DNA of 64,000 nucleotides. Origin: Cucumis sativus. Taxonomy: Eukaryota > Streptophyta > Magnoliopsida > Cucurbitales > Cucurbitaceae. The stretch's first letter is position 1. The number at the start of each line of letters is the position of its first letter. The position numbers and the translations under genes are program-made. The DNA lies in the NCBI RefSeq assembly GCF_000004075.3, contig NC_026656.2, positions 13,764,001 to 13,828,000 on the forward strand, written 5' to 3'. Of this stretch, positions 43,952 through 57,299 are shown in pieces. The notes under the pieces were generated by a model. The model was not told the origin of the DNA. It was given only the letters and a program-made list of their open reading frames with translations, and made no database searches.

Positions 43952-44283
43952 TTAGTCAACGGAGGCTCGTCTCCTCAATTTTATGCTTACAGTACCACTA
44001 TCATTAGCTAGTGAAGTTAGTCTTCTGCAGACCCCTTGCTTTTATATATATATATATATTTGATTAGATTATTGGATGGTAAATTAAGAATTATAAAAAG
44101 AGAATAAAAGTATATAAGGATTGATAAAGTAGAACGGGGAGCAGTGGATAGAAACCCGGACACAACGATATTATCTGTGTAATATAAATATGTGTGACTA
44201 TGGAGATGCCTCGTCGTCCACCGGAATAAATAACAACCCATCAAGAAAACGCAAACGCAACAGTTTTTCTTCAAAATCAAAGC

Positions 44284-46460
44284 ATGGGAATCGCGGAGGA
44301 TGCTCAGAATGTGAAGGTAATAGGGGCCGGACAGCAGATTGTGGTTCTAGGGCATGGATTCGGAACAGATCAATCGGTGTGGAAACACCTAATTCCACAT
44401 CTACTTGATGATTACAAGGTAATTTTGTACGATAACATGGGTGCCGGAACTACTAATCCTGATTATTTCGATTTCGAGCGGTACAGAACTCTTGAAGGCT
44501 TTGCTTATGATCTTCTCGCCATTTTGGAAGAACTTCATGTTGATTCCTGTGTGTTTCTTGGTCACTCTGTTTCCGCCATGATCGGCGCCCTTGCTTCCAT
44601 TACTCGCCCTGATCTCTTCCAGAAGATTATTATGCTCTCACCTTCCCCAAGGTACTTTCATTCCCCCCCTCCCCCCTGCCTCCCTACTGCCGGTATGGAA
44701 TTTTTTGGTTTAATTATTGTTTTTTTATATAAATTTTTTGTGGTTAAGATGATGTGTAAACGTAGGAATAAATCATGACGTATGCGTTTTTTTAATTTTT
44801 AATTCATTATTGATAATTAAATTTAATTTATTTGCCTTCCAACTAAAATTTATTATTAATGTAATTTTTTGTATTCCATTATTATTTTGTTAAATCCATA
44901 TAGTTGCAATTGCAAATGTCACTTTTTTTTAATTCAATTAGGTTTGATAATTATTTGCGTTTTTTTTTTCATTTTTTAAATTAAGCTTAAACTATATTTT
45001 CATCGGTTTCTTTTTAAACGGAAGAAATGGACGAATCATTCACACTAAAATAAATTAAAATATTTACAAGCTATAGCAAAATTTTAGTTTCTATCATTGA
45101 TAGCCTTCAATCACTGTAGCATATCAATGACTATCAGTGATAACTATAGCTTATTTTTATCAAATTTGTTATTTTTAAAAATTTTCCTATTTTTATTATT
45201 TATTCCTAAATTTTTTAAATTTTATTTTGTTTTTTTTTTTTAATTTGGTAAGAATTCAAATGTTTGAATTTGAATTACAAAATTAAAATATAGCATACAT
45301 CAATATGTGTTTAACTCGACTTATATTATCAACTTCAAAATCAAATGTTCAAATCTTTTACCTTTATAAAAAAAATATATGTATGTTTGAAAGCTATTTA
45401 TGATTTTACGTATTCTTTGTTCGGAGTTTGAAAGCTATTTATGATTTTACATAATGGGAGGTAACTTATTTTAATGTGAATAAAATAAGAAAAAGACACA
45501 AGTTTGAGAGGACTGTGTTTGAGATTTTAATAAAAACAAAGAGGGTGTAAGGTAATCTTTATGGAAATAATTATCTAATAGTTTTACCTTTTAGTATAGA
45601 AAAAGAATTTTGAAATGATAGTAAAATCTTTGACATTTGTAGAAATAATTTTTTTATTTTTGTTTGTATGTGGTGGAAAGTTGTAAAGTTTGACCAACAT
45701 TTCAATAATTCTTTAGAAAAGAATGTGTTTTCTTTTCAAAAAGTGCAAATAACTTTTTATAAAGCTTTATTATTATAAATCACGACTAAATTAGGGAAGA
45801 AAATGTTTCAATTGGCTTTTTTAAAACCAGAGTTTGGGACTTACTATGATACGAAAATTTGAGGCCATGAATTTGTTGTTATAATTTGTGATTATTATTG
45901 TCTCATTTTATAATATGAAGTTCGTGTATGGTGTGCAAACTTTTTTTTAAATAGTAACTCATTCGACCGAAATTTTAAAATTCAATTCCTTTATAAATAC
46001 TTATATTTTTCACAGGTATTTAAACGATGAAAACTACTTTGGAGGCTTTGAGCAAGAAGATCTAGAGCAGTTATTCCAAGCAATGCAGTCAAATTACAAG
46101 GCTTGGTGCTCTGGTTTTGCCCCGCTAGCTGTTGGTGGCGACATGGACTCTGTTGCAGTTCAAGAGTTTAGTCGAACTCTATTCAACATGCGTCCAGACA
46201 TAGCGTTGAGTGTGGCGCAGACCATCTTTCAAAGTGACATGAGAAACATACTTAGCTTCGTTACCGTCCCTTGTCACATCATCCAAAGTATGAAGGACAT
46301 GGCGGTTCCAGTGGTCGTTTCAGAGTACCTCCACCGCAACCTCGGTGGCAACTCAATTGTTGAAGTCATGGAGTCAGACGGGCACTTGCCACAACTAAGC
46401 TCCCCTAATACCGTGATTCCGGTGCTTCTTAAGCATATTAAGTACGACATTGCAACCTAG
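44284..46460 (+). CDS. KAI2: KAI2 karrikin / KL receptor (alpha/beta-hydrolase)
   Basis: Receptor-hydrolase of the karrikin and KAI2-ligand pathway. After binding, it works with the F-box protein MAX2 to target SMXL/SMAX1 repressors, in cytosol and nucleus, and controls germination, seedling light responses and mycorrhiza. Exons 44284-44651 and 46016-46460 give 813 nt, 270 aa, exactly the usual length; the single intron splits the codon for Arg123 and is 1364 bp. The catalytic triad is intact: S95 in GHSVS, D217 in MKDMAVP, H246 in SDGHLPQL. Pocket residues visible include F26, V96, Y124, F134, L139, F157, F174, F194 and A219, matching KAI2 rather than D14. Position 190 is Ala and 218 is Met, where I recall Gly and Leu in Arabidopsis. 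Confidence 0.97.
45060..45185. repeat. Dispersed GATAGA/TCTATC repeat copy in KAI2 intron
   Basis: TCTATCATTGATAG, then CACTGTAGC, ATCAATGACTATCAGTGATAAC and TTGTTATTTTT flanks, beginning with ATAGCAAAATTTTAG. Same family as the copies at 25620-25945 and 34640-34790. A nearby 25-bp phrase GTTTGAAAGCTATTTATG... is also duplicated at 45385 and 45427. Confidence 0.45.
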
Positions 46461-47756: not shown

Positions 47757-49125
47757 TTAGCTTAGAACAAACCGGCAGTGATTAAAACCTGCAAAAAAGA
47801 AAACAAATCAACACAACAAAACCCAATTCAACATTGATTCATACTCAAAAGAAAAATTCATAAAATCAGACAAATTCTTACTTGGATCTGAGCTTATAAT
47901 CATGGCAGTTCCTCCAAAGCTACAAGTTCCTCCACTTCTCTTGTTCTTCTGCCAGTAGCTATTGAAAGCGTACGACGCATGTGCCACCAAACTATCCGGA
48001 TGAAAGCAGCTACCCTCTGCCGATATCTCCCGGCAGTCGGCGCCGCCGTCCCCACATGCGTAATCCATCGCCTGCTGAAGAATCTCCGCCGGAACGTTTG
48101 GTTTCGCCACGCACCACAGTTTTTGCACACCACCTGTTTGTGGAAATGGCGCACCGGCGTTTTGGTTTGGATTACATGGAGGTAGAGTAAATCCCATCGG
48201 CGGGCTTGCTGGTACCACGAACGGAGGCGATTCTGGAGCGGAGGCGAAGCTCCAATGTGGCGGAGATGCGATTTGGGACTCTGGTGGAAGTGGGGGTGTG
48301 GCGAGATCTGATGGCAGTGGTGGCTCTGATGTAAAGAAAGGTTCGTATTCTTTGAGTTCCATGAATGAAGAGAGCTTTCTATTAGTGGGGTTTCTTTGTT
48401 TTGAGACGCTGGTTAATAAATTCACCTTTTTTAGCTTTAGAAATCCAAATTTGTTCGTGTGGGTGGAGATGAAACTCTCTGTTTCGTGTAGAGAAATTAC
48501 ATTTTCAGGTAGTTTGAGACTCAATGTAGAGTTAGTACTTTGGATGAACTCAATCACAAGCTTAACCATATTCTGAATGGATTCCTCTTGAGAGTGGAAA
48601 CAATCTTTTGGGAAGAGAGTAGAAACTTTGATTTGATTCTCCAAACCCCATCTAGTGAGGGAGTAAAACAAATTCTTCATAGACAGCAACACAATGTGTA
48701 AATTGTTAGTATCTAGATTCTTGTTGCTGCATAAAGAACTATTTCCCACAACAATGGTGGTGATTTTAGTGGAAGGGTAGTGAGCTAGAACAAAGGTTCT
48801 AAGCCAACTTTCCGCCATTAAAACACTGCTTGAAACTTCTGGAAGTTCAACATCAGTAACAGAAACAGCAACAGGGAGTTCAGAAGCAGACATTGCTGGA
48901 AAAACCCCTGAAGAAGCTATCTCATCCAGCTTCACAAATTGAATGGATTCTTGACCTGCAGCTGCCATGGCAGAACATTAATAAACCCACAAGACAGGAA
49001 GTAAAAAAATGTAAAGAGAGAGAGAGAGGGAGAAGCTTACTAGTAAGACCCAGAAGGAGGAAGAAGAAGAAGAAGAAGAAGAAGAGGAGGAAGAAGGGAG
49101 AGAAAAACTTCATCTTCTTCACCAT
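47757..49125 (-). CDS. Secreted X8 (CBM43) protein with degenerate GH17-like region
   Basis: Cell-wall/apoplastic protein. Three exons on the minus strand: 49125-49041 (signal peptide), 48955-47882 and 47788-47757, 1191 nt, 396 aa. The signal peptide is unusually Phe-rich (eight in a row, from a GAA/TTC repeat). Residues about 30-200 resemble the start of a GH17 beta-1,3-glucanase (VAVSVTDVELPEVSSSVL, AESWLRT, VVGN), but VGNE is VGNS at 101 and most of the barrel is missing, so it should not hydrolyse glucan. A Pro/Ser-rich linker (about 235-295) leads to the X8 domain at 308-394, with LWCVAKP, the usual cysteines and a closing FNHCRF. X8 binds beta-1,3-glucan (callose). The protein stops two residues after X8, so no GPI signal is seen. 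The nearest Arabidopsis gene I recall is At5g67460. Confidence 0.88.
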
Positions 49126-51587: not shown

Positions 51588-51596
51588 ATGTTTATG
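51588..51596. repeat. Left 9-bp target-site duplication of MULE
   Basis: ATGTTTATG directly precedes the element; the same nine bases follow it at 55129-55137. A perfect 9-bp duplication is the Mutator-superfamily hallmark. Confidence 0.9.
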
Positions 51597-51712
51597 GGGA
51601 AATTACCAAAAATAAGCCAAAAATGGAGGAATAAAAGATTTATGAGATTGATTTTTAAAAAGTTGATTTCTAGGACAAATTATGTGTGAATTGTCTAAAT
51701 TACCCTTAATTC
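51597..51712 (+). repeat. Left terminal inverted repeat of MULE
   Basis: Starts GGGAAATTACC and ends near AAATTACCC. It aligns to the inverse of 55014-55128 with scattered substitutions and small gaps. Confidence 0.85.
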
Positions 51713-51758
51713 ATTTTACCTTCCATTCCTTCTCCTCAACGCAGAAACAAAACGCAAA

Positions 51759-51789
<31 letters not shown>

Positions 51790-52990
51790 TTCGCTTTCTT
51801 CTCCTTCTACTTCGGTGCATATCATCGCTTCTCGGATGTCGTTCGTCGCTCCTCCGGTGTGAACTAAAAGATCTGAACAAAGAGCCAAAGCTACACTTGT
51901 TACTTCTCTAAGGAAAAAACTAAACCCCCTAATCTTCTTCCTCCAAACTTTCCTCTGATTTTCGACTCAAATATTCAGCAATTTGGTGGGTAACTATTCT
52001 TTGTTTATTTCTGTTTTTCTTCCTTTTTAATACGTGAATTAGGGTTGAATCAAAAGATCGCTTACTGAGTCGAATCTTTGATGATGGCACACAGAGATCA
52101 CGATGAATTAGTACATGATAGAAAAACATGTTTAAGATTTTGCCGAAATTTTAAATAGAGACCTAGGTAAGGATGGATTAGCTTAGGTGAAATTTTGTGA
52201 TCATTTTATGATCGTTATAATGGTTACAATTTTACTTGTTTCCAATTCAGTCTCCTATTTTTTGAACTGAGTAAGAGGGAGTGGATGAATATTCAATGGT
52301 AGCATTAGAAATGTATTTGTTTCGAAAGCCCATATGATTTTTTTCCTTTTGGGTAGATTCTGTTTTGCAATCTGAACGGACTTTATATATAGGGTTGGTG
52401 CTTCATTGTGATTTCTTTTTTTTTCAGTTGCTGCTAAGATAATTTTGGTGGAAGAAAAGAGACGGATCAATGCCAAAGGGTTTGAAGAGTAAATATCAAT
52501 CTACTTCTCATTAGGTTTTGAAGGAAAAAGAAAAGAATTGTGTTAATGACCTTGAAGGGATATTCACTAATCTTCAAAATGCAAGGAGAGTCGTACTACT
52601 GACATTGCACGTGTCTCTGTTTTACTTTCGACTTCAACTCCGGCGGACGCTTCTCCACTTCCATCCATTTCGATTTCAGGTTTGTTTTCACCGGACCTCT
52701 CCATTTCTTATCCACTCCTCTACGTTGGCAGTGTCGTATCCATCATTTCCTTTGCAATGTACTGTAATAATAGAAAAACCATACCTTGGAGTTTAGAACT
52801 TGAATTCGAACATATATTTGGTATCCCATATAAACTCTGCAAAGCTACCAGTACAATAGAATATCATAAGCTGCATTGTTGAAAGACCATTTCCTTTGCA
52901 ATTTGTTGAAAGACATTATCATAAGCTGCATTGTTGTTCTCTACTTTGTTAATGTTTTTAGTGATGTAGTTCCAATAGAATACAATCTTT

Positions 52991-53868
52991 AGAATGCATG
53001 TTTAGCTAGTCTAGGTAGTCTACTAGGTGTTAAGGCTTTAGGGTTAGCAATTTTATTAGACTTAGCAACTTTGCCTTGAAGTTTTCCAGCATCTCGCACC
53101 TATCAGCACCTATCTCTCACCTTCCAAAATTTTGAGTAGAAGTCCCAAGATGAGAGTGTTAACCTTCCTAAACCGTTTAGAATGCATGTTTAGCTACTCT
53201 ACTAGGTGTTAAGGCTTTAGGGTTAGCAATTTTATTAGACTTAGCAACTTTGCCTTGAAGTTTTCCAGCATCTCGCACCTATCAGCACCTATCTCTCACC
53301 TTCCAAAATTTTGAGTAGAAGTCCCAAGATGAGAGTGTTAACCTTCCTAAACCGTTTAGAATGCATGTTTAGCTACTCTACTAGGTGTTAAGGCTTTAGG
53401 GTTAGCAATTTTATTAGACTTAGCAACTTTGCCTTGAAGTTTTCCAGCATCTCGCACTTATCAGCACCTATCTCTCACCTTCCAAAATTTTGAGTAGAAG
53501 TCCCAAGATGAGAGTGTTAACCTTCCTAAACCGTTTAGAATGCATGTTTAGCTACTCTACTAGGTGTTAAGGCTTTAGGGTTAGCAATTTTATTAGACTT
53601 AACAACTTTGCCTTGAAGTTTTCCAGCATCTCGCACCTATCAGCACCTATCTCTCACCTTCCAAAATTTTGAGTAGAAGTCCCAAGATGAGAGTGTTAAC
53701 CTTCCTAAACCGTTTAGAATGCATGTTTAGCTACTCTACTAGGTGTTAAGGCTTTAGGGTTAGCAATTTTATTAGACTTAGCAACTTTGCCTTGAAGTTT
53801 TCCAGCATCTCGCACCTATCAGCACCTATCTCTCACCTTCCAAAATTTTGAGTAGAAGTCCCAAGATG
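52991..53868 (+). repeat. 179-bp tandem array, five copies, one telo-box per copy
   Basis: Units start AGAATGCATGTTTAGCT at 52991, 53179, 53358, 53537 and 53716. Periods are 188, 179, 179 and 179; the first copy has a small insertion and the last lacks the final ~25 bases. Copies are almost identical (single changes such as CGCACTTATC in one copy), so expansion was recent. Each contains CTTTAGGGTTAG, which includes the telo-box AACCCTAAA on the other strand. The array lies just upstream of the ULP1 reading frame. Confidence 0.9.
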
Positions 53869-53940
53869 CTAGTGCATCCATGTTTAGTAAGTCTCTTATG
53901 CAATTATATTTAATTAGTTTTTTTTTATGCAGGTTTCAGT

Positions 53941-54497
53941 ATGGCTTCGACATCAACTAACGGTCCCATGTACAAGATTGACCCTGCTCATCATTTTCAG
54001 TCTATAGTAAGTAGTTTATCACATTTAGTAAGCAGGTTGACTATGTTGTCGGATCAAAACAAGACTGTCAAGATCCTTGGGTGAATGTTGATTACATTTA
54101 CTCTCCATTCAATATCCATGGCAATCATTGGATTCTATTATGCTTGGACTTGGTACGTTGTCAAGTTAAGGTATGGGATTCGCTTCCGTCGCTGACGAGT
54201 GCCGAAGATATGAGAAGCATATTAGAGCCAATTCAAGAGATGGTGCCAAATTTGCTCGATGCTACTGGATTCTTTGTTAGGAGAGGCGGATCATCAACAC
54301 ACAAGGAACCTTGGCCACTTGTCATTGTCGACTCCATTCCACTTCAACGCAACAATAGTGATTGTGGTGTATTTACAATTAAGTATTTCGAATATGAAGC
54401 TTCTGGTTTAGATGTAGCTACATTATGTCAAGAAAACATGTCATATTTTAGAAAACAATTGGCATTTCAATTATGGACCAACAATCCCATGTATTGA
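53941..54497 (+). pseudogene. ULP1-type SUMO-protease (C48) domain, N-terminally broken
   Basis: The coding core 54036-54497 encodes a C48 cysteine-protease domain of the Ulp1/SENP family, which cleaves SUMO precursors or SUMO conjugates. All catalytic positions are present: His in NIHGNHWILL, Asp in VWDSL, the oxyanion Gln in PLQRN and Cys in NSDCGVF. The domain ends at a TGA after NNPMY. Upstream the frame is closed by TAG at 54012-54014. An ATG at 53941 opens 22 codons in the right phase with a good donor (GTAAGT at 54007), but the 29-bp gap to the next AG is too short for a plant intron. It therefore reads as a truncated gene or one whose real first exons lie elsewhere in the element. Full ULP1 genes are several hundred residues. 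Confidence 0.75.
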
Positions 54498-55013
54498 CTT
54501 TTAGTTCCAACTTTTGAAGGAATTGTATATGTTCCAAACTATGTACATAAATAGTTTTATATAATGGAATGAATACCATTTTTGTTTTTTGGTATGCAAT
54601 TTTTATTTCATTATCTTGGAAAATTGTAAAGTGTGCAGAACTTTTATATAATGTACAACAATGCAGGTGAGAGCAACATTTTCATGCTCTTAGAATTAGG
54701 AAGGCCAATTTATCCCACAATGTATGAAAATGGAGAGAGATGAGAGAAAAATGAAATATTCTTTTTGGAAGTGAGAAAATGGAGAAAATGGTTTTCAAAG
54801 GCCGGTGGGAGACCATGGGAAGAGCTTCAGAAAGAAATTTCAAGAAAACGAATTAAAGAATGGAAAAGGAAGAAAAAGGAAATTTCGTGAAAATGAGGGA
54901 AAATGGAACACTAGAGGGAGGGATGAGAGAAAAATGAAACATTTTTAGAAAGTGAAAAAACGGAGGGAGAAGGAGAAGAGAGGATTCATAAATTGATTTT
55001 AGGATATTTTTTA

Positions 55014-55128
55014 ACTTGAGGGTAATATAGACTTTTTCCAACTAATTTGTCCTAAAAGTCATCTTTTTTAAAATTCATCTCAAAACTCTTTACATCCTTC
55101 CAAATTATCCTATTTTTGATAATTCCCC
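55014..55128 (-). repeat. Right terminal inverted repeat of MULE
   Basis: The complement begins GGGGAATTATCAAAAATAGG and matches the left repeat. It is directly followed by the second ATGTTTATG target copy (55129-55137). Confidence 0.85.
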
Positions 55129-55340
55129 ATGTTTATGGTAGAGAGAAGTAATAATGTATATGAAAAGGTGAAGGGTGAAGGGTGTTGAGACAAAATTAGT
55201 TAGTGGATGGAGATGGGAAAAGGGGAGAAAAGGTAGGATGGGATGAAGAGAAAAAAGTGGGGAAAGACAGAAGAAGTTGAGAAATGATGATGAAAAAAGG
55301 GGTAATATTGCAGCTTTATACGGAACCCACTAAACAAAAA

Positions 55341-55425
55341 CCCTTTGGCTTTGCCTTTGGCATTGGCTTTGCCTTTGGCTTTGGCTTTGGCGCTTGGGGG
55401 CTTGGGGTCTTGGGGCTTTGGGGAG
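55341..55425 (+). repeat. TTTGGC / CTTGGGG minisatellite
   Basis: Repeats of TTTGCC/TTTGGC hexamers pass into GGGGCTTGGGG units. It reads as an artificial Gly/Phe-rich frame, which I do not regard as coding. Confidence 0.7.
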
Positions 55426-57299
55426 ACGATCGATCACACTCATACGGAAGGCACCACCCCATTCCCATAGGACCCACCTATACACACACTTTTCAATCTT
55501 TTTTATTTTTTTCTATGCTAAATTACTTTTATTTTAAAATGTCTATCTCAAATATACTTTTACCATTAATTTTTAATGAAAACCGTTAAAGTTTGGGTTT
55601 AGATTTTTATGGGTTGGATGTGAATAAAAGGGACTATACAAATCACATATAAAAAAAATGATCCTAATATAAATAATAGACATGCATATTTATTTAATAA
55701 TTCAAATTTATGTTTAGATCTTTTTCACATATATCTATTGAAGTTGGAATTTCTATAATGTTTTATTTAAAAATAAAATTTTAGTTTATTGAAGATGAAG
55801 CCACGTGGGCAAATGTTGCATAGAAGTCCTTTTCGACTTGGTTTACAATCCACCTTGGAATATTATGGGACCATTCAAACGTTTGTTTTACGATTGTGAT
55901 AGACAAAATGTAAATGAAATTGAATTGAAATTCTCGAATAGGGTTTTAATGTCTTTGATCGATGAGCTCAACCATGTGGTTTTTCACTCAAGATTAAGTT
56001 TGGGGTAAGAATGAGTTGTTGCAAATTTGATCTCATCTCTTATTATAAGAATTTTCTCTAATAGTTTAGACTTTAATACATCTATCAATATCGATATTTT
56101 AAATCTTGACTAAAACATAAATTCTACAAAATCTCATAAAGTTTCAAAATAAAAATTTCTCCTTCAAATATACTAAAACTATTAGTCAAACAAAAAATAT
56201 CTATTAATATGTGTTGTCGAATACATTTTTTATTTGACAATTAACGGTAGGATAATTACAACAATAATTAAGGGTTTTAACTTAGAATTTAGGTTTTTAT
56301 TTTGGTTCGTGAGAATATTGGTGTAAATTTTGATGGACTATTTTTTAACTTTTTGTTTCAGTTCAGCTCTATTTATGAAATTTTTTCAATAGTTCAAAAG
56401 TATTTTTTAAACAAAACTTTCAATTCAAAATATTTTCAAACTCTTTTAAAAACTTTTAAACCCTTTTTTTAAAATTCTTAAAATTTTGAAAGTTTTTTTT
56501 AACGTTCAACGAAATTAAATTTGGAGACATTTTTTTTTAATTTAACCAATTAATTATTAATCTAACAAAATCAATTTTGTTAACTTCTTAATCATTTAAA
56601 TGAATATATTATAATAATATCTTTTCTTAGGGAATATTTTTTATAGTTCGGTTGATATTTTATAATTTAAGCTTTTAATTATTCCGAAATTGCCCTTCTT
56701 CTTCACCTTTGTTCTCTTTTATTTGTTTCTTTTACGTTTCTCTTCTTCCTTTGCTTCTCTTCTCATATTCTGTCTTTCATTTTCTTTTTTTAATGCCCTA
56801 ATCATTCTACTATTTGTACTTCATATACAATATATTACAATTGGAGGAAGTTTTGATCTTTTCGTTCTTGTGTGAATCACTCATATTTATAAATTTATTG
56901 AAATTAAGGCTACGATTTGTTCTTCCTCATATATTGTATTATTCTTCTTTTGTGAATCACTCATATTTATAAATTTATTAAAATTAAGGCTACGATTTAT
57001 TCTTCCTCATTTCTTTTATATTGTATTAATCTTGATTTTAGGATATCAATGATACATTAATTGTAATATGAAACATGATAATTGTTGATCAAAGTAATTT
57101 AACTTCGTCTGTGATTGTTCTCAACTTCCTTCGATGTGTATTTTGGAGTTGATTCTGATTTCAAATTATTTTTTTTTATTGTTTTAGGTTGGTTTTATTT
57201 TAGTTTTAGTTTCTAACAATTTTGGTTTTATTATATGCATTAGTTTGTTGGTATATTTATTACGTGATTTTCATTTTTGCAAAACTTTTACCGTTCATT

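Follow-up and report, generated by a model that had tools for sequence, protein, structure and literature searches.

How can a transposon that has lost both of its own proteins remain mobile, and why should it carry part of a protease gene beside a tandem array? The question is raised by a Mutator-like element (MULE) at positions 51588-55137 of a 64,000-bp stretch of the Cucumis sativus genome (13,764,001-13,828,000 of contig C2 in a 226.6-Mb assembly), referred to here as the window. We conclude, with a probability of about 0.6, that this is a non-autonomous, recently inserted MULE of the CsMULE/CUMULE kind that is kept mobile by a system resembling that of the Arabidopsis anti-silencing protein VANC21, in which the steps of binding and demethylation are ones that we infer. 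The anatomy of the element and its derivation are almost certain; the best reading of the array is that it has a role in anti-silencing, a probable role for which homology and association argue.

An earlier note on this DNA, made from the sequence alone, had described a fully delimited, recent, ULP1-bearing and transposase-less MULE of a Kaonashi/CUMULE-like class. The description stands as far as the CUMULE type is concerned, while the likeness to KAONASHI falls away because KAONASHI elements lack terminal inverted repeats (TIRs), which are present here. The perfect 9-bp target-site duplications (TSDs) that it reported were found again (ATGTTTATG at 51588-51596 and 55129-55137) and lie within the 8-11 bp of MULE duplications; the inverted repeats around the cargo region are long, measuring 113 bp and agreeing at 84 of 113 positions. 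The presence of a ULP1 domain without a transposase was likewise borne out: Peptidase_C48 is matched with an E-value of 1.2e-24, and no open reading frame (ORF) of transposase length was found among the element's ORFs of at least 60 amino acids, three of which were run against Pfam. The nearest solved relatives of the ULP1 ORF in the PDB are SENP1, SENP2 and SENP5, with SENP7 and Ulp1 weaker. The ORF has no methionine before the conserved histidine region and its frame is broken at a deletion junction, so it is unlikely to give a working protease.

With the element as query, at least 173 matching pieces were found in the genome (40 of 371 candidate places scored), and its left flank is single-copy. 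Twenty-one loci, including the window copy and a large relative, L029, were delimited by their TIRs; a script found perfect 9-bp duplications in 15 of them, 14 of which are distinct, and the copies with different 9-bp flanks that the earlier note had proposed to look for thus exist. The duplication has one mismatch in L025 and two in L023, and L020, L022, L027 and L028 fail the script, L027 having a perfect AAATAAACT once its altered right end is shifted by 2 bases. The left flanks of L012 and L013, and those of L027 and L028, are identical over 700 bp, and each pair was therefore counted as a duplicated segment and not as separate insertions. These pairs (G000:C5 8.02 and 8.77 Mb, G000:C4 12.70 and 12.78 Mb) are segmental duplications or assembly duplicates, and the C5 pair has a MULE domain pair about 11 kb off at nearly equal offset. 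Over the left 1415 bp the window element and its eight nearest copies are 98.7-99.6% identical, and over the right 1260 bp 98.7-99.8%; these eight have left TIRs at 99-100% identity, and the right TIR reaches 98-100% in 20 loci. As each TIR is nearly identical across copies, the 26% gap between the two ends must be inherited and predate this insertion, which is therefore, as had been proposed, younger than the divergence of its ends.

A search for relatives that encode the transposase MURA and have similar terminal repeats, also suggested previously, succeeded: such relatives exist, and their terminal repeats are ~75% identical to the left TIR of the window element. The 810-amino-acid MURA of one of them, L030, matches the MULE domain PF10551 (E 2.7e-20), the MuDR DNA-binding domain PF03108 (9.2e-10) and SWIM (4.9e-07), and at least 16 uninterrupted 810-amino-acid MURA ORFs of equal score are present in the genome; 11 of the 16 listed have a ULP1 match and an above-cut-off DUF1985 match both within 8 kb. 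All four large elements that we read (L029-L032) have, on the strand opposite MURA and next to the array that the window element also has, a DUF1985-ULP1 gene or what is left of one. In L031, the DUF1985 exon (E 1.1e-15) and the ULP1 exon (E 7e-26) both lie opposite MURA. A 178-bp array is placed directly 5' of the gene and comprises 2.4, 6.8, 8.4 and 11.4 units in L030, L029, L032 and L031, respectively.

The window element descends by internal deletion from elements that carry MURA and an opposite-strand DUF1985-ULP1 gene. Positions 52606-52746 are 96.5% identical to L029, and 52626-52746 are 97.5% identical to L031, with the match continuing from 52744 into the array. Position 54035 maps to both 3672 and 6065 of the reverse-complemented L031, i.e. 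a jump of 2.39 kb, and beyond this junction the window element matches L031 at 99.4% up to 54670. MURA is absent, so that both proteins have been lost and the TIRs and array kept. The ULP1 segment, which the earlier note had taken for cargo, is what remains of the 3' part of a DUF1985-ULP1 gene that belongs to the family itself: 636-695 bp of it are 99.0-99.5% identical to L029, L030 and L031. The large elements read have no match to the left 1 kb or to the last 0.4 kb of the element, except in the TIRs. Positions 51710-52605 have 20 matches in the genome, 14 of which (the window included) span at least 611 of 876 bases; 52339-52506 alone occurs in five further places at 88-90% identity. The segment 54788-55014 is found in nine places on C1 and C3 (78-95%), five of them within 2 kb of a pair of the motifs considered below (a comparison made by eye). 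Since this segment is found in other elements and the ends are unlike those of the large relatives, the window element is a chimera of MULE pieces.

The link to anti-silencing comes from the DUF1985 exon. When the exon of L031 was compared with PDB sequences by phmmer, VANC21 (9lnj, 9lnk) was the sole significant match (E 1.2e-6, next 0.74), and a profile built from five DUF1985 stretches of this genome gave VANC21 at E 1.4e-14 (next 0.081). A DUF1985 homologue is thus found in the relatives, as in L031; the window copy retains only the start of the exon. VANC21 and VANC6 are anti-silencing proteins encoded by Arabidopsis elements; their targets are short motifs in the noncoding parts of the element, placed in tandem repeats that can grow or shrink (PMC5735166, PMC10398659). 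ULP1-carrying VANC genes (KIU) are said to act likewise in Arabidopsis (PMC13317346). Measured against an older relative, L050, the first 200 codons of the DUF1985 exon (from L031) have a dN/dS of 0.185 and part of MURA (from L030) has one of 0.42; the ULP1 and MULE matches of L050 each hold a stop, so decay may have raised the dN/dS values.

The noncoding DNA of the cucumber elements also has a short motif that clusters in tandem arrays. Exact ATCTCGCA occurs six times in the window against 0.77 expected, and five of the six occurrences are inside the array. The 179-bp array is not the private feature that it had seemed to be: it is family-wide, with 2-10 units in 20 non-autonomous copies and never fewer than two (these copies were retrieved with an array-bearing query), and with 2.4-11.4 units in the four large relatives. 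In L029, the region 5' of MURA contains a chain of four motifs (≤1 mismatch) at 10-11-bp steps, which none of 300 Markov-resampled sequences reached, and one array unit of the window contains three weaker copies at steps of 11 and 10 bp, a chain (≤2 mismatches) that 1 of 300 resampled sequences reached. The motif lies 5' of both genes in L029, in the sense direction of each, and the same 8-mer is present in two unlinked noncoding regions. An 8-mer common to an array unit and the MURA 5' region was also considered as evidence in itself and set aside, as about five are expected by arithmetic and it is not significant alone; the argument is built instead on the helical repetition, the genome-wide pairs and their spacings, and the loci chosen by TIR.

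Across the genome, ATCTCGCANNNATCTCGCA occurs 240 times and the reversed pattern 0 times, and when every gap from 0 to 30 is allowed there are 544 exact motif pairs, the control having 2. Among 28 distinct strings (from ~100 of the 544 rows, all on C1), the spacings were 11 (10 strings), 22 (7), 33 (5), 21 (4), 25 (1) and 31 (1), so that 22 of the 28 are spaced by 11, 22 or 33 bp, although strings from related copies are not independent. On C1 and C2, a MULE, ULP1 or DUF1985 domain is listed within 8 kb of 24 of the 45 motif-pair clusters, compared with 1.9% of random places, and the motif is present at 10 of 11 DUF1985 loci that bear ULP1 against 4 of 21 others (Fisher p 1.4e-4, a value weakened by the copies of one young family).

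Loci chosen by their TIRs, and not by the motif, gave an unselected test. We took ranks 13-32 of 41 rows of TIR similarity, leaving out the 12 nearest and 9 further ones, and compared 1.09 kb inward of the TIR with 1.09 kb outward. At least one helical motif pair (≤1 mismatch) was present inward in 15 of 20 loci and outward in 0 of 20, and at least one exact motif in 15 and 1, respectively. The count was 0 of 20 for the reversed motif, and for 100 permuted motifs it averaged 0.03 loci and never exceeded 2. The window element itself would be missed by this test, its first motif being ~1.5 kb inside.

Motifs are also found in elements that have no genes at all. Ten loci (L038-L047) were picked by the 11-bp motif pattern, which means that their spacing is given by construction and is not counted as spacing evidence; two of the ten, L039 and L040, passed the TIR/TSD script, and in both a block resembling that 5' of MURA is present twice, in inverted orientation. 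Two further gene-less elements of 1020 bp with TIRs, L053 and L054, contain three exact motifs at 22-bp steps and are 100% identical but flanked by different perfect TSDs (ACTAAAGAA and AAGAATTAC), which points to very recent mobility. No such 9-bp duplication was found at L055, the third further locus chosen by motif.

The reading that we prefer would account for these observations as follows. MURA from intact copies would act in trans on the TIRs of the window element, and the DUF1985-ULP1 protein, as a homologue of VANC21, would bind ATCTCGCA-type motifs, which recur roughly once per helical turn, and strip silencing marks, leaving array-bearing copies mobilisable. The array would then be a cis target and not cargo, its number of units changing as VANDAL targets do. 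Several results weigh against this. An uninterrupted DUF1985 exon above the Pfam cut-off is present only in L031 among the four large relatives read: L030 lacks most of DUF1985, L029 has no DUF1985 match and a stop near its ULP1, and in L032 the exon has a gap and its match falls below the cut-off. The arrays of L031 and L032 contain ATCTCTCA but no exact ATCTCGCA, and a single-unit chain of two motifs (≤1 mismatch) is not unusual, being equalled by 26 of 300 resampled sequences. Five of the 20 TIR-chosen loci have no helical pair within 1.09 kb (L056, L059, L061, L067 and L071), and the 20 are related, falling into nine groups at 80% identity (single linkage), of which six have the motif; 21 of the 45 clusters on C1 and C2 are not within 8 kb of the listed domains, and only for a few of these was an element demonstrated. 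The dN/dS of ULP1 (from L031) is 0.50 against L050 and 1.27, on six changes, against L016. L050 has little more than one array unit and one motif, which suggests that the array grew in the young lineage. The way in which the 20 non-autonomous copies were retrieved belongs here too, as does the link between motif and protein, which is one of association.

The simplest alternative is that the TIRs suffice, given MURA from intact copies, and that the array and motifs are neutral products of slippage or unequal crossing-over. In maize, MURA acting on TIRs is sufficient; tandem repeats expand without selection, the number of units varies freely between 2 and 10, and slippage of an 11-bp repeat would by itself give 11-bp spacing. 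Neutrality does not readily explain why the same 8-mer stands in two unlinked noncoding regions of L029 and in gene-less elements of 570-1020 bp, why the motif is inside but not outside 15 of 20 TIR-defined elements (common ancestry could explain part of this), or why the neighbouring gene should be a homologue of VANC21, and we regard it as doubtful. The position of the motifs in L029, 5' of both genes and in the sense direction of each, together with the resemblance of the L039 and L040 blocks to the region 5' of MURA, would also fit a role as enhancer or promoter sites, at which a host transcription factor would drive MURA and DUF1985-ULP1 and which small elements would have received with the 5' ends of these genes. 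Such sites would be of no obvious benefit to elements without genes, yet L039 and L040 hold the block twice, and this explanation seems unlikely.

Capture of a host ULP1 gene fragment by a Pack-MULE would be suggested by the window element viewed in isolation, with its ULP1 fragment and no transposase, and ULP1 in MULEs has been described as transduplicated (PMC2528002, PMC13317346). We rejected it as highly improbable because the fragment is continuous with the gene inside MURA-bearing elements and almost identical to it, so that any capture must be old and belong to the family. The anti-silencing reading can be extended to the whole lineage: we consider the odds even that a cucumber TIR-MULE lineage has a running sequence-specific anti-silencing system in which DUF1985-ULP1 reads helically spaced ATCTCGCA-type motifs, that defective and gene-less classes (3.5 kb, ~1 kb and ~0.6 kb) spread by keeping only a TIR and motif cluster, and that other DUF1985 lineages use other motifs (TATCANTGATA in L048), with several private systems coexisting.

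Among known systems, the family is, judged by the published description, close to CsMULE, known from an insertion in intron 2 of CsMYB60 in cucumber. Both have a 9-bp TSD, the TIRs of the window copy measure 113 bp against 117/115 bp published, MURA is present here in the relatives, and a 6995-bp relative on C4 with the TSD AAGAAACTT compares with the 6994 bp published; the description of CsMULE names a MuRA-like gene and, as far as it goes, no DUF1985-ULP1 gene, array or motif, and the window copy is half the size, without MURA and with different sub-terminal parts (PMC6305189). CUMULE of melon (van Leeuwen 2007, as described in PMC5299730, PMC2528002 and PMC13317346) is likewise a ULP1-bearing TIR-MULE of a cucurbit, likened here by description only, and the citing accounts do not mention an array or motif; in melon and rice, ULP1 is reported to lie in the same or the opposite orientation to mudrA (PMC2528002). 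VANDAL elements, as described with VANC21 and VANC6, also have an element-encoded DUF1985 protein, short same-direction motifs in noncoding tandem arrays that gain and lose units, and targets that differ between related families, but their TIRs are degenerate whereas those here are long, ULP1 is attached here, and the motif is YAGTATTAY there and a candidate of ATCTCGCA type here (PMC5735166, PMC10398659). On account of its long TIRs, the window element was not filed as a VANDAL. In KAONASHI/KIU, reported as ULP1-carrying VANC genes, a ULP1 domain lies opposite mudrA in a MULE, as it does in L030, but the KI-MULEs are described as non-TIR elements (PMC2528002, PMC13317346).

The element is therefore of already known kinds, i.e. 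a CsMULE-like MULE with a VANC/KIU-type gene in its relatives. The literature searches, in which the letters of the motif were not used as text, listed no paper that deals with a VANC-type system of cucumber or melon and none that has this individual copy. As far as the literature found goes, three things are new: the candidate motif, the fact that it is helically phased in a TIR-MULE family, and its occurrence in elements without genes. They may overlap with an EMBO J 2022 paper on eudicots. The features of the window element, and several relatives with delimited ends, are collected in Table 1.

Table 1. Parts of the window element (window positions) and its large and small relatives
Feature	Position	Strand	Length (bp)	Remarks
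Left TSD, ATGTTTATG	51588..51596			identical to 55129-55137
Left TIR, GGGAAATTACC type	51597..51709	+	113	84/113 identical to right TIR
Left sub-terminal region	51710..52605	+		absent from MURA-bearing relatives read; common to a small set of near copies
Noncoding region 5' of array	52606..53011	+		common to MURA-bearing relatives
179-bp tandem array, 4.8 copies	53012..53868	+		Tandem Repeats Finder (TRF), 99% matches
Five helical motif triplets, one per unit: ATCTCGCA / ATCAGCA / ATCTCTCA	53091..53835	+		steps of 11 and 10 bp; candidate anti-silencer target
DUF1985 exon start (MASTSTNGPMYKIDPAHHFQ...)	53941..54084	+		start codon 53941, 47 amino acids, then stop
ULP1 (Peptidase_C48) relic ORF	54015..54497	+		160 amino acids; Pfam E 1.2e-24
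Deletion junction, DUF1985 exon joined to ULP1 exon	54034..54036			~2.39 kb gone relative to L031
Right sub-terminal region	54730..55015	+		not from MURA-bearing elements read; 54788-55014 common to other elements
Right TIR, GGGGAATTATC type	55016..55128	-
Right TSD, ATGTTTATG	55129..55137			identical to left TSD
Large MURA-bearing relative L029			8282	perfect TSD AATAATATT
Large relative, C4 copy	636794-643788		6995	perfect TSD AAGAAACTT
Large MURA-bearing relative L031			10767	perfect TSD AAAAAAGAG
Large MURA-bearing relative L032			9357	perfect TSD GAAATGAGA
Large relative	C4:24329830-24336639		6810	perfect TSD AAGAAGGAT
Gene-less element L040			570	perfect TSD TATTATTTA; TIRs and inverted motif blocks around a short middle
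Gene-less element L039			600	perfect TSD AAAAATAAG; TIRs and inverted motif blocks around a short middle

VANC anti-silencing has been worked out in Arabidopsis (PMC5735166, PMC10398659), and here a crop genome holds a young, multi-copy family with intact-looking genes, a candidate motif and natural minimal elements that serve as deletion experiments. The results suggest that ULP1 in plant MULEs can belong to an anti-silencing gene and need not be random cargo, and with this family one can test directly what a parasite of a parasite has to retain. The family is similar, too, to the insertion that is reported to reduce expression of CsMYB60, perhaps via methylation (PMC6305189). Near the copy at C4:24.33 Mb, where CsMYB60 was sought, no MYB was recognised among the ORFs of one side (L051), no family search being made.

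Other DUF1985 loci differ in their repeats. L048 (G000:C3:21250500-21260400) is a different DUF1985 MULE with no ULP1 nearby among the matches listed; it contains 24 copies of TATCANTGATA, many in tandem arrays, and one ATCTC[GT]CA. TATCANTGATA is a candidate target motif of a second anti-silencing lineage, and these counts are as expected if lineages keep private motifs. In the window, outside the element, TATCANTGATA occurs three times (45092-45142 and 57044-57054) against 0.17 expected by shuffling. At L049 (G000:C6:25164000-25172000), a 137-bp array of ~8 copies adjoins a DUF1985 domain, and neither motif is present.

Elsewhere in the window, ORFs at 44230-46460 and 47808-48977 look by eye like an alpha/beta hydrolase of the KAI2/D14 kind and an X8/CBM43-type protein. 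A CTTTGG repeat of 8.2 copies lies at 55343-55391, ~200 bp to the right of the element.

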